This document shows positions 553 through 55,864 of a DNA stretch of 64,000 nt, piece by piece. The notes below the pieces were generated by a model. That model worked only from the letters and a program-made list of their open reading frames with translations. It had not been told where the DNA came from and did not search any database. Made by a program: the position numbers and the translations under genes. Each line of letters starts with the position of its first letter. Positions within the stretch are counted from its first letter, which is position 1. The DNA is from Virgibacillus natechei (lineage in GTDB: Bacteria; Bacillota; Bacilli; Bacillales; Amphibacillaceae). The stretch spans positions 3,658,001 through 3,722,000 of the forward strand of contig NZ_CP110224.1 in assembly GCF_026013645.1 (NCBI RefSeq). Direction: 5' to 3'.

Positions 553-706
553 CTTATAGTCCGTGTTCAAAAAGGAGGATAAAAAGGACCGCGTCGGCTA
601 AAGTCACAGGCGTCCTGCCTGTAACGCCGACACTAGCACGTCCTGTGCGTCGAAAGTTCGAGGCGGCGTAGCTTTGAGTACCGGGCTTTTTGAACATCCT
701 CTTATA
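553..706. repeat. MITE-like element R1, copy 1, with 6-bp target duplication
   Basis: The element occupies 559-700 and is flanked by the direct repeat CTTATA (553-558 and 701-706). Its ends are inverted: GTGTTCAAAAAG at 563-574 and CTTTTTGAACAT at 686-697, 11 of 12 positions complementary. Inside is a GTCGG/CCGAC stem holding a small hairpin, then ACTAGCACG. A second copy at 52694-52866 has a different flanking duplication. No open frame in it looks like a gene. It sits in the 660-base gap between xpaC and the next gene. Confidence 0.75.
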
Positions 707-826: not shown

Positions 827-844
827 GTTAAACTGCGATAAATA

Positions 845-1121
845 AACAAAAGCGCAAGCGCCGGTTTAGCAACGTACAAACTGGAGCACTTCGCAATGAG
901 ATAAAGGAAACACGACGAACGAAGGGAGTCGATGTTGACTTTCACCACAAGGGTATAAGTGCGACTTTACTTCTGCCTACGCCTGCCGGCTTGGCAATCA
1001 GTAAGTCTTCTTTATCGTAGTGGAGGAGTGTGAAGTTTGATAGTTGCTGGGCGCTGGAGCTGGACGTGGCTATTCCAGTATATAAGTTATCCACTGCATT
1101 TAAATTTTATAGTTTCCTATG
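845..1121. repeat. Modular repeat R2, copy 1 (short form)
   Basis: Starts with AACAAAAGCGCAAGCGCC, whose GCGCAAGCGC is a GNRA-loop hairpin, and ends with ATAGTTTCCTATG. Near the right end is a CTGGA...TCCAG hairpin. Copies 2 (2403-2727) and 3 (20826-21282) share both ends but carry extra hairpin modules after the first 35 bases, which this copy lacks. There are no terminal inverted repeats; subterminal hairpins at both ends resemble the organisation of non-autonomous IS200/IS605-like elements, which is an inference. Confidence 0.7.
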
Positions 1122-2402: not shown

Positions 2403-2727
2403 AACAAAAGCGCAAGCGCCCGTTTAGCAACGTACAAACTGCGCCCGCACATCGCGGGTGGTTCAACGTTGCCACGCAAAGTGGCGGTTTTAGTTGAACT
2501 TCCACTGCCGCAATGAGATAAAGGAAACACGACGAACGAAGCGAGTCGATGTTGACTTTCACCACAAGGGTATAAGTGCGACTAAGCCTCTGGCAGAGCC
2601 AATCGGCAAGTCTTCTTTATCGTAGTGGAGGAGTGTGAAGTTTGATAGTTGCTGGGCGCTGGAGCTGGACGTGGCTATTCCAGTGTATAAGTTATCCACA
2701 GCTTTTAAATTCTATAGTTTCCTGGTG
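2403..2727. repeat. Modular repeat R2, copy 2 (with hairpin module)
   Basis: Same ends as copies 1 and 3. After the left GCGCAAGCGC hairpin it contains an inserted two-hairpin module (about 2442-2510): a CCCGC/GCGGG hairpin, then a GTTCAAC/GTTGAAC stem enclosing an inner hairpin with a GCAA loop, followed by TTTTA. Copy 1 lacks this module. Fills most of the gap between the ATL gene and the CoA-transferase gene. Confidence 0.72.
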
Positions 2728-6548: not shown

Positions 6549-8015
6549 TTGCATAGACATTCCGTATCTTCACTCACGTATCCTGATGATATGCTCGCCA
6601 TTATAAGAAACGGATTAAACAGAAGCACCTCGCCGAAAAAAATAATTATTGCAGGAGCTGGCATGTCTGGACTTGTGGCCGCATCCTTATTGAAACAAGC
6701 TGGACATAGCGTCACCATCCTGGAAGGAAACAACCGCTTAGGAGGAAGAGTCTTCACCATTAGACAGCCATTCACCCAGGGAAATTATTTAGATGCAGGG
6801 GCGATGCGAATACCCGACGACCATTTCCTCGTAGCTGAATATATTCGCCGCTTCCATCTCCGCACCAATCGTTTTATCAACACTTCGCCGCATGATTTAA
6901 TCTTTGTTAATAACGTACGAACCACACTTGCATCTTATGATCAGAACCCAGATATAATAGAATTCCCGGTTAAGAACTGGGAAAAAGGAAAAACAGCGAC
7001 AGAACTCTTTCTCTTAGCAGTACAACCCTTTATCGACCTCTACTCAACCAGCAGCCCTGAGCAACAAGATCAATTAGAAAAACAATATGATCGTTATTCC
7101 ATGCAGGATTTTTTGCGTTATAACCCGATAGGTCCTTCCTTGTCAGTGAATGCAATCAGTGAGATCAATGTGATATTTGGAATTGAAGGGCTAACGGCGC
7201 TTTCTTTCGTTGATATTTTAAAAATTATTCTCCCTATTTTTGATACGGACGCTGCATTTTATGAAGTTACAGGTGGCAATGACCAAATTCCATTAGCCTT
7301 TCTGCCAGAGCTTTATAAAGACATTTTGTATGGCGAAAAGGTGGAAAAAATTATACAAAACGAGGCAGATATACGTGTTATAACAAAAAACCAGTTCACT
7401 CAGGAGTCGCATGAATTTTCAGGAGACTTTGCTATCACCACGATTCCCTTTCCTGTATTCCAATTGATCGATGTCGTTCCCTATCATTCTATTTCCTTTA
7501 AGAAACGGCAGGCGATCCGCGAGCTTAAAAATGTATCCGCGATAAAGGTCGGAATTGAATTCAAACACCGTTTCTGGGAGAGGTTTCAGATGGGCAATAG
7601 TGTGTCAGATTTACCCATAAGAGCTACCTACATCCCTAGTCATCAGATTGGCAGTAAAGGACCGGGTGTGCTTCTGGCAAGCTATAGCTGGGGGCAAAAC
7701 GCGTTGTTGTGGAATGGATTGGCGAAAGAAGACATCATTTATTATGTACTGGAGGACTTGGCAAAAATTTATGGGGATCAAGTTTACCACGAATATTTGC
7801 AAGGTGTAGTAATTAATTGGAGCCAGGATCCCTTCTCCACTGGGTGCTTCACCATGTACGCCCCGGGACAGGAAACCGACTTTGCAGACTCTATTCCCCG
7901 TCCTGAAGGAAGGCTGCATTTCGCTGGAGAGCACACATCGTCCTTTCACGGATGGATTGAAGGAGCGATTGAATCCGGAATCCGCGCGGCTTATGAGGTA
8001 AACAAGAGGACATAG
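6549..8015 (+). CDS. Flavin-containing amine oxidase, paralogue 1
   Basis: A 488-residue FAD oxidoreductase. The N-terminal dinucleotide-binding motif IIIAGAGMSGLVAAS (GxGxxG at about 36-41) is followed by LEGNNRLGGRV, the second FAD strand, and YLDAGAMRIP. The C-terminus has RLHFAGEHTSSFHGWIEGAI, the FAD-contacting end typical of monoamine and L-amino-acid oxidases. Such enzymes oxidatively deaminate an amine or amino acid, releasing ammonia and H2O2. The start is TTG, with AAAGGAGG 7 bases before. No signal peptide is evident. A close paralogue lies at 13016-14488; substrate is unknown. Confidence 0.85.
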   Translation: MHRHSVSSLTYPDDMLAIIRNGLNRSTSPKKIIIAGAGMSGLVAASLLKQAGHSVTILEGNNRLGGRVFTIRQPFTQGNYLDAGAMRIPDDHFLVAEYIRRFHLRTNRFINTSPHDLIFVNNVRTTLASYDQNPDIIEFPVKNWEKGKTATELFLLAVQPFIDLYSTSSPEQQDQLEKQYDRYSMQDFLRYNPIGPSLSVNAISEINVIFGIEGLTALSFVDILKIILPIFDTDAAFYEVTGGNDQIPLAFLPELYKDILYGEKVEKIIQNEADIRVITKNQFTQESHEFSGDFAITTIPFPVFQLIDVVPYHSISFKKRQAIRELKNVSAIKVGIEFKHRFWERFQMGNSVSDLPIRATYIPSHQIGSKGPGVLLASYSWGQNALLWNGLAKEDIIYYVLEDLAKIYGDQVYHEYLQGVVINWSQDPFSTGCFTMYAPGQETDFADSIPRPEGRLHFAGEHTSSFHGWIEGAIESGIRAAYEVNKRT

Positions 8016-8018
8016 TGC

Positions 8019-8051
8019 TCGGGACAGGGGGACAGGTTTCTTGTCCCCCTG
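8019..8051. repeat. REP-like palindrome R6, copy 1
   Basis: GGGACAGG, then GGGGACAGG TTTC TTGTCCCC arms: a stem-loop directly after the amine oxidase stop codon. First of nine copies of the GGGACAGG/CCTGTCCC family, seven of which cluster around the RAYT gene. May double as the terminator of the preceding gene. Confidence 0.65.
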
Positions 8052-10446: not shown

Positions 10447-11208
10447 ATGCCAAGAAAAGCAAGAAGGGCTAGCCGTAATGGAATCTATCATATTATGTTG
10501 AGAGGAGTAAATAGACAAACTATATTTGAAGATGATGAAGACAGATTAAGGCTTTTAGAAACGATAAAAAGGTTTAAAAATATAAGTAAAATTAAGATTT
10601 ATTCATACTGTTTAATGGATAATCATGTTCACTTATTGATAAAAGAGACTGAAGAGACAGTGTCAAAGGCTATTCAAAGGATTAGCTCAAGTTATGTATA
10701 TTGGTACAACAACAAGTATGAGCGTTCTGGGCATTTATTTCAGGATAGATTTAAAAGTGAAAATGTAGAGACTATCTCTTACTTTTTAACCGTTTTACGC
10801 TATATACACCATAACCCCCTAAAAGCCGGTCTAGAGAACAGTGTATTCGACTGTAAATGGACAAGCATGAATGAGTATTTAGATCCTACAAACGTAGTTG
10901 ATATTGATTTTGCGCTCCAATTATTTTCCTCAAACAGAAGCAAAGCCATCCAACTATTCACCGATTATATGCAAGAGTCTAATGATGATCAATGTTTAGA
11001 TGATCACTTAAAAGTGAAAACATCAGATAGTGAAGTAAGAAGTCATTTGGTTGCATTGGGGATTCCAAATAATAGTATATTGCAGCAGATGGAAAAGAAA
11101 AACAGAGATGAAATTATTTCCAAACTAAAAGGAATGAATGGTGTATCTGTTAGACAATTATCAAGAATAATAGGAATATCGAAAAGTGTTATCGATCGCG
11201 TTCGCTAA
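10447..11208 (+). CDS. REP-associated tyrosine transposase (RAYT), Y1/HUH family
   Basis: A 253-residue single-strand transposase-like protein. Residues 1-125 form the Y1 domain: GIYHIMLRGVNRQTIFEDD, the metal-binding HUH motif as DNHVHLLI (His60, His62), and a tyrosine-rich helix YVYWYNNKY supplying the catalytic Tyr, then GHLFQDRFKSE and YIHHNPLKAG. The C-terminal 25 residues (SVRQLSRIIGISKSVIDRV) are a DnaA-like helix-turn-helix, a fusion known in some Firmicute RAYTs. RAYTs cut and join DNA at REP palindromes; seven GGGACAGG palindromes lie within 3 kb. GAGGTG precedes the ATG. Single gene without flanking IS ends. Confidence 0.88.
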   Translation: MPRKARRASRNGIYHIMLRGVNRQTIFEDDEDRLRLLETIKRFKNISKIKIYSYCLMDNHVHLLIKETEETVSKAIQRISSSYVYWYNNKYERSGHLFQDRFKSENVETISYFLTVLRYIHHNPLKAGLENSVFDCKWTSMNEYLDPTNVVDIDFALQLFSSNRSKAIQLFTDYMQESNDDQCLDDHLKVKTSDSEVRSHLVALGIPNNSILQQMEKKNRDEIISKLKGMNGVSVRQLSRIIGISKSVIDRVR

Positions 11209-13015: not shown

Positions 13016-14488
13016 ATGAATAGTTATTCAGCGAGCGCTTCCTCGCTTGCTTATCCTGATGATATGCTCCCTATTATAAAAAATGGGTTAAGACAAAGCA
13101 GTTCTTTGAAAAAAGTAATTATTGTAGGGGCTGGAATGGCTGGGTTAGTGGCAGCATCTTTATTGAAACAAGCTGGACATAACGTTACGATTCTTGAAGG
13201 AAACAATCGCATTGGCGGAAGAATTCTCACAATAAGACAACCATTTTTCCAAGGGAATTACTTAGACGTAGGAGCCATGCGATTACCAGATAATCATGTT
13301 CTCCTATCCGAATACATTCGTCATTTTAAACTGCGTACAAATCCATTTATTCAACCCTCGCCAAATGATTTAACATTTGCTAACAACAAGCTGACCACCC
13401 GTTCAACTTATGAGCAGAATCCTGATATATTGGGATTTCCATTACAGGGATGGGAGAAAGGAAAAACAGCGGCTGAACTTTTCTTCCTAGCAGTCCAACC
13501 CTATATCGATCTATATTCCACTAGCACACCCAAGCAACAAGCAGAATTAAGAAAAAAATATGATCATTATTCCATACGAAACTTTTTACGACATAACCCA
13601 CTAGGACCATCCTTATCCGCAAACGCCATCCGTAAAATTAATGTACTATTTGGTATTAGCGGAATAACAGAGCATTCTTTTGTTGATGCCTTAACCGTTA
13701 TTCTCCCGATTATTACGCAAGAGACATTTTATGAACTTAGCGGTGGGAATGACTCCCTCCCTTTCTCTTTCTTGCCAGCGCTTTATAACGACATTTTATA
13801 CGGGCAAAAGGTAGAAAAAATAATACAAAAAGAAAAAGAGGTAAGTCTTATAACAAAAGATCGGGTAACTGGAGATTTACATGAATTTTCAGGTGATTTT
13901 TCCGTGATCACTGTTCCCTTCTCCTTATTTAAGTTCATCGACGTCGTTCCTCATCACTCTATTTCTTCTAAGAAATGGCGAGCCATTCGAGAACTCAACT
14001 ATGTTCCAGCTGTAAAAATTGGAATAGAATTCAAACATCGTTTTTGGGAGTACGATCAAGTAGGTAATAGCACGTCAGACCTTCCGATACAGTTTTCGAT
14101 TACGCCTAGTCCAACGAATGGAAGTCACGAATCAGGCGTACTTCTTGCCAGCTATAGTTGGGGGCAGGATGCTATGTTATGGAATAGTTTAGCGAAGGAA
14201 GACATTATTCGTTATGTTCTTAAAGACCTAGCAAATGTATATGGGAAGCAGGTTTACGATGAATACTTACAGGCGGTATCATTCAATTGGAGCCAAAACC
14301 CTTTCTCTGCGGGGTGCTTTACCTTGTACACCCCTGGTCAGGAGACTGCTTTTGGCGACAGCATTCCACGGCCTGAAGGGAGGCTACACTTCGCAGGTGA
14401 ACACGCTTCTTCCTTTCATGGGTGGGTCGAAGGAGCTATTGAATCTGGCATCCGTGCAGCTTATGACGTGAATACGATACGGGAATAA
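13016..14488 (+). CDS. Flavin-containing amine oxidase, paralogue 2
   Basis: A 490-residue protein aligned end to end with the amine oxidase at 6549, with most motifs identical: SLAYPDDMLPIIKNGL, VIIVGAGMAGLVAAS (FAD-binding GxGxxG), LEGNNRIGGRI, YLDVGAMRLPD and RLHFAGEHASSFHGWVEGAI at the FAD-contacting C-terminus. The two clearly arose by duplication and have since diverged throughout. AAGGGAGGTG precedes the ATG. Function is inferred as oxidative deamination of an unknown amine or amino acid. It ends the + strand cluster; the following gene converges. Confidence 0.85.
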   Translation: MNSYSASASSLAYPDDMLPIIKNGLRQSSSLKKVIIVGAGMAGLVAASLLKQAGHNVTILEGNNRIGGRILTIRQPFFQGNYLDVGAMRLPDNHVLLSEYIRHFKLRTNPFIQPSPNDLTFANNKLTTRSTYEQNPDILGFPLQGWEKGKTAAELFFLAVQPYIDLYSTSTPKQQAELRKKYDHYSIRNFLRHNPLGPSLSANAIRKINVLFGISGITEHSFVDALTVILPIITQETFYELSGGNDSLPFSFLPALYNDILYGQKVEKIIQKEKEVSLITKDRVTGDLHEFSGDFSVITVPFSLFKFIDVVPHHSISSKKWRAIRELNYVPAVKIGIEFKHRFWEYDQVGNSTSDLPIQFSITPSPTNGSHESGVLLASYSWGQDAMLWNSLAKEDIIRYVLKDLANVYGKQVYDEYLQAVSFNWSQNPFSAGCFTLYTPGQETAFGDSIPRPEGRLHFAGEHASSFHGWVEGAIESGIRAAYDVNTIRE

Positions 14489-20825: not shown

Positions 20826-21282
20826 AACAAAAGCGCAAGCGCCCGTTTAGCAACGTACGGACTGCGCCCGCGCATCGCGGGTGGTTCAACGTTGCCACGC
20901 AAAGTGGCGGTTTTAGTTGAACTTCCACTCCGCAATGAGATTAGATGAACTTGACTTATCGCCAGTAGTGGCGAAAGTCAAAGTGAATCTTATGCTTGGA
21001 AAGCGAAAAGGAAACATGCCCCTTCATAGGGGTATGCCGACGCCTGAGCGCAAGCCCGGTTTTAGTCGGCCTTCCTTAAGCCTAGTGAGCCGATGTTGAC
21101 TTTCACCACAAGGGTATAAGTGCGACTTTACTTCTGCCTACGCCTGCCGGCTTGGCAATCAGTAAGTCTTCTTTATCGTACGGAGGTGAAGGAAGTCGCG
21201 CTAGTTGCTGGGCGCTGGAGCTGGACGTAGCTACTCCAGTATATAAGTTATCCCCAGCGTTTAAATTCTATAGTTTCCTATG
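20826..21282. repeat. Modular repeat R2, copy 3 (longest form)
   Basis: Begins two bases after the stop codon of the DUF2512 gene. It shares both ends with copies 1 and 2 but has two nested modules: one (about 20866-20930) like that of copy 2, and a second, 21012-21080, with a CCCC/GGGG hairpin, a GCCGAC/GTCGGC stem, a GCAA loop and TTTTA, which copy 2 lacks and which reappears in the unrelated repeat R3 at 49588-49650. The right end carries the common CTGGA...TCCAG hairpin. Confidence 0.75.
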
Positions 21283-34420: not shown

Positions 34421-34529
34421 TCTTCTTATCTCCCAAGTTTCATCAACTTGCTAGAAGTAGCACCTTGTTATCATAACAGGTTGCTGAAGCGTCATCGGGC
34501 TTAGTCCCTCTGCCTCTCTTAATAAGAAT
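34421..34529 (-). ncRNA. SAM-I (S-box) riboswitch aptamer
   Basis: Read on the minus strand the P1 arm CTTATTAAGAG is followed by GAGGCAGAGGGACTAAGCCC, CGATGACGCTTCAGCAACC, AAGGTGCTACTTCTAGCAA and the closing GAGATAAGAAG arm: the core order of the S-box leader, including the kink-turn and the pseudoknot region. It precedes a terminator and the methionine genes, so high S-adenosylmethionine should switch them off. Confidence 0.95.
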
Positions 34530-49473: not shown

Positions 49474-49727
49474 TAAAGCTCTTTGCATCAGTATTGTTGT
49501 TTTTAAAATTTCGCAGTTGGTAGAAACTGCGGCGTACCCGTTGGGTTTCTTTTCGCTACGGACCGTTGCTTTCCGCGGGCACGGCTTTGCCCTGGCAAAG
49601 GGTATGTCGACGTTGTTCGCAAAGAACGGTTTTAGTCGACCTTCCTTAGGATATTCATGCGGGGTCTTCAGACACGTGCTATTCCCGCAGGAGTCAACGG
49701 TCCTCCGCTCCAATCAACCATCATAAA
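49474..49727 (-). repeat. Large dispersed repeat R3, copy A
   Basis: Read on the minus strand it starts TTTATGATGGTTGATTGGAG, contains GACTCCTGCGGGAA, ACGTGTCTGAAGACCCCGCA and GCCGTGCCCGCGGAAAGC, and ends AACAACAATACTGATG. Copy B at 55623-55864 matches end to end, except that here the centre holds a two-hairpin module (49588-49650) which is also found in repeat R2 copy 3. GC-rich for this genome. Fills the 820-base gap after the HAD gene together with copy C. Confidence 0.75.
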
Positions 49728-52687: not shown

Positions 52688-52872
52688 CTATTAGTGCGTG
52701 TTCAAAAGGAGGATAAATAGGACCGCGTCGGTTAAGTTCACCACGTCCTGGGAATGCGCGTAAATGCTCGCCCCACCGAAAACATTTGTGGCAACACCGA
52801 CACTAGCACGTTTTAGCAGAAGATCCCCTACGATGTGTCATTTTTACCGGACTTTTTGAACATCACCTATTA
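52688..52872. repeat. MITE-like element R1, copy 2, with 6-bp target duplication
   Basis: Element 52694-52866 flanked by CTATTA direct repeats (52688-52693 and 52867-52872). Inverted ends GTGTTCAAAAGG and CTTTTTGAACAT, the same ACCGCGTCGG and ACTAGCACG blocks as copy 1. Its central stem carries an extra insert, 52752-52787, which is the reverse complement of a module in repeat R3 copy B. Located upstream of the sirtuin gene. Confidence 0.78.
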
Positions 52873-55622: not shown

Positions 55623-55864
55623 TTTATGATGGTTGATTGGAGCGGAGAACAGTCGACTCCTGCGGGAACAATGTTTTTCGGTGGGGCGAGCATTTACGCG
55701 CAGCCCCAGCACGTGTCTGAAGACCCCGCAGCGGTGGTCTTCCGCGAGGAGGCTGAAGCCGTGCCCGCGGAAAGCGACTGTACGCAGCGAAAATCAACCT
55801 GGCAGGTACATCGCAGTTTATATCAATTCCGAATTTAAAAGCAACAATACTTATGAAAAGAGCC
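55623..55864 (+). repeat. Large dispersed repeat R3, copy B, inside the ars operon
   Basis: TTTATGATGGTTGATTGGAG at the left, GACTCCTGCGGGAACA, AGCACGTGTCTGAAGACCCC, GAGGAGGCTGAAGCCGTGCC, CGCGGAAAGCGACTG, and the GCAACAATACTTATG tail, which stops at the arsB stop codon. Compared with copy A it has a module (about 55672-55710) also seen, inverted, in repeat R1 copy 2. Confidence 0.75.

Follow-up and report, generated by a model that had tools for sequence, protein, structure and literature searches.

A two-hairpin unit of about 58 nt related to Rfam RF01690 (Bacillaceae-1) is probably a mobile DNA element nested in larger repeats of Virgibacillus natechei

The window analysed here, a 64,000-nucleotide stretch of V. 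natechei DNA, contains several copies of a small folded unit embedded in larger repeats. The unit is separable: it is discrete, has a near-constant net length, occurs in many hosts and in both orientations, and its paired stems are kept by two-sided changes. We propose, with a probability of roughly 0.7, that it is a mobile DNA element, discrete and non-autonomous and about 58 nt long, that inserts in either orientation and spreads further with its host repeats.

Layout and family of the unit

Direct reading of positions 49588-49651 gives, in order, a small hairpin, GGTATG, GTCGAC, an inner hairpin (GTTC-GCAAA-GAAC), GGTTTTA, GTCGAC and CTTCCTTA. The layout recurs at 21012-21081, but there the stem is GCCGAC/GTCGGC and the inner hairpin GAGC-GCAA-GCCC. 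A relative with a GTTCAAC/GTTGAAC stem is read at 2444-2509 and 20867-20932. The initial annotation had noted the layout in repeats R3 (copy A) and R2 (copy 3), and the relative in R2 copies 2 and 3; both are present at these places, and the layout is real.

On the opposite strand, the unit is a match or weak match to Rfam family RF01690 (Bacillaceae-1), with six copies in the window scoring from 53.2 to 21.4 bits. The curated gathering cut-off of 35 bits is reached by three of these: 580-649 (plus strand, within an R1 repeat, 53.2 bits), 2444-2509 (minus strand, site A of R2 copy 2, whose site B is empty, 43.3 bits) and 20867-20932 (minus strand, site A of R2 copy 3, 40.8 bits). Below it lie 49590-49651 (minus strand, module A in R3 copy A, P1 stem GTCGAC/GTCGAC, 27.9 bits), 52726-52802 (plus strand, within an R1 repeat, 25.2 bits over model positions 11-49) and 21019-21081 (minus strand, site B of R2 copy 3, P1 stem GCCGAC/GTCGGC, 21.4 bits). 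The copy at 49590-49651 is a divergent relative of RF01690, while that at 52726-52802 is interrupted, its P2 loop being broken by a 38-nt hairpin at about 52748-52785. Across the whole genome (3.87 Mb) there are at least 106 RF01690 matches at E<=1 and at least 57 above the cut-off, both lower bounds obtained by scoring 150 of 609 candidates, a list outside which the 49590 copy itself falls.

The three helices, core and taxa of RF01690 are as in the unit, and several copies pass its gathering score; it differs in being filed as an sRNA, an orphan one, and the copy at 49590-49651 falls under that score and has no UCCU loops. As far as the available parts of the sources go, Bacillaceae-1 was classed in 2010 as certainly RNA, not cis-regulatory, and found in Bacillaceae (PMC2864571), is placed among the most abundant sRNAs (PMC9029176), and is represented in BSGatlas by eight structures in B. 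subtilis (PMC8208703). The portion available of PMC4333381 proposes CsrA binding on the reverse complement, the discoverers being unsure of the strand. Bacillaceae-1 is not called mobile in the available portions of these four papers (PMC2864571, PMC4333381, PMC9029176, PMC8208703), and the literature searched held no report recognisable as this unit being mobile.

Stems, core and loops

The unit was aligned from 97 copies in its own genome and 31 in relatives, after exclusion of ten of the 107 own copies with internal inserts or partial matches. This gave 118 distinct rows, of which 87 belong to the own genome; the other 31 come from eight relatives (G006, G015, G016, G025, G027, G049, G117 and G136). 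In P1, 687 of 707 cells are paired and two-sided changes occur at 6/6 pairs, which bears out the compensating stem changes proposed earlier; sliding the partner leaves 27-36% pairing. The 31 distinct 5'/3' hexamer combinations of P1 form a mean of 5.65 of 6 pairs; shuffling them 2000 times lowers the mean to 3.72 and never takes it above 4.32. For P2, 555 of 586 cells are paired, five of the six pairs show two-sided changes, and a slid partner gives 15-55% pairing. P1, P2, P3 and the core CUAA...CAACG of RF01690 are all present (by pair counts for P1 and P2, and by reading only for P3), and the core between the stems (CUAA, CG, CAACG) is mostly conserved. Folded alone, 49588-49651 does little better than its shuffles (z -0.65 as DNA, -1.35 and -1.62 as RNA). 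Better values are obtained for those at 580, 2444 and 20867 (z -1.8 to -3.7).

The terminal loops of RF01690, which we take to be RUCCU, appear as GUCCU and aUCCU in the consensus of the match alignment. On the Rfam strand the loops of the unit are likewise mainly GUCCU or AUCCU; the R2, module-A and related subfamilies, which include the R2 and R3 copies of the initial annotation, instead carry UUUGC or UUGC. The loop bases described as conserved in the initial annotation are so within the R2 and module-A subtypes, but in the wider family GCAA(A) is not kept and UCCU prevails. To the eye, the UCCU loops might plausibly kiss AGGA in the flanks or in such targets, but this candidate was discarded after a shuffle test in which 612 of 1000 shuffles did as well.

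These loop counts also bear on the possibility that the unit is an sRNA whose hairpin loops, read on the reverse complement of the Rfam model, bear GGA and sponge CsrA, for which the available part of PMC4333381 offers a published motif match. Among the 87 distinct own-genome rows, TCC (GGA on the other strand) lies in loop 1 in 42, in loop 2 in 37 and in both in 35, and GGA in both reverse-complement loops, as expected of a CsrA-binding sRNA, is not general among these rows; in 43 of them, including the copy at 49590-49651, neither loop has it. CsrA is found in 29 of 31 genomes, but G008 has 26 unit matches and no CsrA match, and the nine genomes without units all have CsrA. Neither the loop counts nor the genome co-occurrence supports a sponge, and we consider this role very improbable.

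Filled and empty sites in the host repeats

R3 copy A (49507..49727, minus strand, approximate ends) is an inverted match (arms I1 and I2) to copy B (55623..55836, plus strand), in which the unit site is empty (GCGAGG then AGGCTG) and which carries a 38-nt hairpin. Where present, the unit is flanked by a variable hairpin on one side and by AGGCTxA on the other. In the loci gathered, a script distinguished 67 R3 copies, 36 empty and 31 filled by one of three subfamilies (13, 12 and 6); these and the other filled/empty fractions are not frequencies, the loci having been partly chosen for holding units. The 32 copies that the script scored as 'other' were called empty by reading, each containing GAGGAGGCT, AAGGAGGCT or GAGAAGGCT, while the window copy at 49590, whose host reads CATG, stands outside the count. 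Four flanking-hairpin types are seen both filled and empty, with inserts of 58, 58, 58 and 59 nt; these lengths cover the two larger subfamilies (13 and 12 copies). At a second R3 site, a 60-nt unit is present in one locus (L112), and 12 loci, of which some overlap, show the site empty. At the counterpart of the window locus in the same-genus genome G001, 76 nt separate the aligned flanking genes versus 804 in the window, so the R3 pair and the unit are absent there; in G002, just one of these two genes could be aligned.

R2 has two unit sites, A and B, both empty in copy 1 (841..1102, plus strand; 82-nt form). Among 26 distinct copies spanning both sites, neither is filled in 6, only A in 5, only B in 2 and both in 13. 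The empty form measures 82 nt, A-only copies 140-141 and B-only copies 138-139; doubly filled copies measure 189-199 in five cases (82 + 59 + 57 = 198) and 260-263 in the other eight, which hold an extra insert of about 63 nt. This third insert, which has its own hairpin, lies between GAGAT and AAAGGAAACA, at about 20941-21008 in the window and in seven further copies. Filling of sites A and B also goes with replacement of a few bases of the empty form, and at site A one B-only copy (L049) is unlike the rest; owing to these short replaced stretches, these are not clean insertions. Within R2 in the genome G049, the unit lies in one orientation in 8 loci and the opposite in 11 (19 of the 20 fetched loci being matched by script), and reading assigns the twentieth, L316, to the second orientation. 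The R2 hairpin loop itself reads both CTCGC-ATCCT-GCGAG and CTCGC-AGGAT-GCGAG in G049 (L314-L333), as if the loop were inverted.

Eight site comparisons, made at two R3 and two R2 sites, in tnpB and in two Rpn-type genes, show the filled form longer by 56-62 nt, close to 58. The precise empty sites that the initial annotation had suggested looking for are thus found in R3 and R2, and with/without sites also occur in the two genes and the tRNA spacer described below.

Units in genes and a tRNA spacer

A PDDEXK_2/Rpn-type gene in G000 is interrupted by the unit, as is its 82% identical homologue in G015. Relatives without the interruption are present in G002 and G015; the gain is a net 62 nt in G000 (in a comparison with another species) and 58 nt in G015. 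In G025, tnpB is interrupted by the unit in both loci read (L277 and L289), while tnpB without a unit at that site was read in G025, G027, G000 and G006. The net gain over two unfilled copies is 58 nt, which shifts the frame. Pneumococcal BOX elements, ERIC with internal inserts and Rickettsia palindromic elements (RPEs) are known cases of modules in larger palindromic repeats or of gene insertions. By description, the unit has these properties in common with them; RPE insertions keep the reading frame, whereas that in tnpB does not.

The tRNA-Glu/tRNA-Val spacer was readable in 29 of 30 loci (ARAGORN was run on one locus), with tRNA-Val next in 19. Three of these 19 hold the unit (two in G016, one in G005), ending flush with tRNA-Val; one (G015) holds what reads as a decayed copy, and 15 have no recognisable unit.

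An alternative, which we consider unlikely, is that a few large non-coding repeats have the unit as an optional structural domain, which spread with them, is swapped between them by recombination or gene conversion and is sometimes precisely lost, with no movement of its own. Most units read in this genome do sit in R1, R2 or R3, and R2 copies are up to 97% alike, which makes gene conversion plausible. Several genera have the unit at one and the same R3 spot, as reading of G000, G015 and G006 shows, and this would also be expected from an ancestral domain with repeated loss. A domain confined to these repeats is harder to reconcile with units in tnpB, the Rpn-type genes and the tRNA spacer, with opposite orientations in one host, or with the second site in R3. 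Precise empty sites, several hosts and both orientations likewise argue against simple shared ancestry of R2 and R3: rather than a single ancestral repeat context, we find several hosts and both orientations within one of them. The earlier suggestion of a separate small element within otherwise unrelated repeats is supported by sites with and without it in R2, R3, the tRNA spacer, an Rpn-type gene and tnpB. We infer that the unit itself moves, though at the R2 and R3 sites gain and precise loss look alike.

Nested hairpins and other features of the window

A smaller hairpin of 37-38 nt (TGGGGCTGCGCGTAAATGCTCGCCCCACCGAAAACATT and variants) is found by an approximate pattern at 68 places in the loci of this genome; in the window it lies at 52748-52785 and 55668-55707. 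By reading, at least 12 of the 68, including that within 52726-52802, lie in loops of the unit, between GTCC and TG; others are in R3, R2 and further repeats. The R2 copy in L065 has an exact 37-nt insert relative to the empty R2 copy in the window. In R1-type repeats, opposite-orientation unit pairs occur 194-196 nt apart, start to start, in a REPIN-like arrangement (G000 2384935/2385129, 2601279/2601473, 3433504/3433699 and 2518115/2518311).

The window also encodes a Y1 transposase at 10447-11208 (Pfam 68.5 bits; NCBIfam REP-associated transposase 71.2 bits, cut-off 80), with hairpin repeats of the form GGGACAGG...CCTGTCCC near 8019, 8711, 10030, 10198, 11242, 11345, 12909 and 55003. We regard this gene as a probable RAYT accompanied by REPs of its own and without relation to the unit. 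Elsewhere in the window, a SAM riboswitch lies at 34423-34528 (minus strand, 87.3 bits), and two similar open frames about 6.5 kb apart (6549-8015 and 13016-14488) are 72-75% identical over repeated stretches.

Distribution and candidate mobilisers

Among 31 genomes, including its own, the unit has matches at E<=0.01 in 22, and the number per genome runs from 0 to 109 (no more than 115 candidates were scored in each). An order-wide draw of 150 genomes gave 78 with matches at E<=1e-4, in 50 of 84 genera. The exact module-A pattern is carried by Ornithinibacillus halophilus, Lentibacillus sediminis, two Oceanobacillus, Aquibacillus albus and a Bacillales MAG (21 stretches). One 91-nt query run against each of plasmids and phages gave no match, and two patterns searched in IMG/VR found one and the same contig, with two matches. 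RF01690 is a family associated with rRNA operons. No such association was seen for the six G011 copies examined, which sit in a repeat of about 350 nt, in 4-kb stretches free of rRNA motifs (script patterns) and tRNA.

We think it improbable, if less so than a CsrA sponge, that an IS200-like Y1 (RAYT) transposase encoded in the same genome moves the unit as a REP-type element. The unit consists of hairpin repeats without terminal inverted repeats, its inverted pairs recall REPINs, and this genome has eight Y1 matches. Across genomes, Y1 genes do not track the unit: G016 and G014 have 32 and 6 unit matches, respectively, and no Y1, G025 has 68 unit matches and one Y1 fragment with a stop, and B. 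subtilis matches RF01690 but not Y1, while G010 has 16 Y1 matches and no unit. Scanning seven of the eight Y1 loci turned up a single unit (E<=1), which belongs to an R2 copy. Elements adjoining and tracking a Y1 gene are a feature of REP/RAYT systems; over the 31 genomes and seven Y1 loci no such link was found for the unit, and a Y1/RAYT mobiliser is rejected as a general answer. As described in the available part of PMC3116915, REP/REPIN elements with RAYT resemble the unit as short, non-autonomous hairpin DNA in many copies, single or in inverted pairs; the unit differs in having about 58 nt and two hairpins, versus one in a REP, and in sitting within other repeats and genes. The mitochondrial double-hairpin or repetitive hairpin-forming elements of PMC2800124 (available in part) are also two short hairpins, scattered, intergenic or sometimes genic, and presumed mobile; the unit is bacterial, and the likeness is one of description, not sequence.

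Proposed mechanism

The ends of four inserts match at 3-4 of 15 positions, so the terminal inverted repeats that characterise DDE-type MITEs are absent. No target-site duplication is needed for the 58-nt inserts (between GAGG and AGGC); AAGG stands on both sides of a 59-nt insert, and there is no consistent pattern. The target is often AGG-rich, as between GAGG and AGG in R3, at GGAGGA of tRNA-Val and at GAGG in the Rpn-type gene, while that in tnpB is not clearly so. IS200/IS605 is an HUH-type system that recognises a folded single strand. A miniature element of this type would have subterminal hairpins, no inverted repeats and an insertion point next to a fixed short target; the unit has hairpins and lacks inverted repeats, but its target, often AGG-rich, is different in tnpB. 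The lack of terminal inverted repeats and of a consistent target duplication, the constrained stems and the two orientations fit an HUH-type mode in which the single strand is recognised in its folded state.

We therefore propose that the unit is a mobile element in which P1 encloses the inner hairpin P2, with the conserved core CUAAnnnCG...CAACG, and a further hairpin, P3, comes after them. The unit would insert in either orientation, without terminal inverted repeats and often at purine-rich sites such as that between GAGG and AGG, its folded single strand probably being moved by an enzyme acting in trans that recognises this fold. Multiplication of the host repeats R1, R2 and R3 would then spread it further. 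A bolder and distinctly tentative extension is that RF01690 as a whole is a class of mobile DNA, among the smallest, and not an RNA gene family. In this case a 58-nt folded strand might insert itself at GGAGG-like (ribosome-binding-site-like) sequences via an enzyme class other than the known Y1, within a hierarchy in which the 38-nt hairpin enters the loops of the unit and the unit enters larger repeats.

An Rfam family filed as an sRNA thus appears to behave like mobile DNA, and sRNA annotations that count RF01690 need review. With its filled and empty sites and its stem covariation, a 58-nt unit offers a direct route to what moves tiny hairpins, a question common to REP-like and double-hairpin elements.
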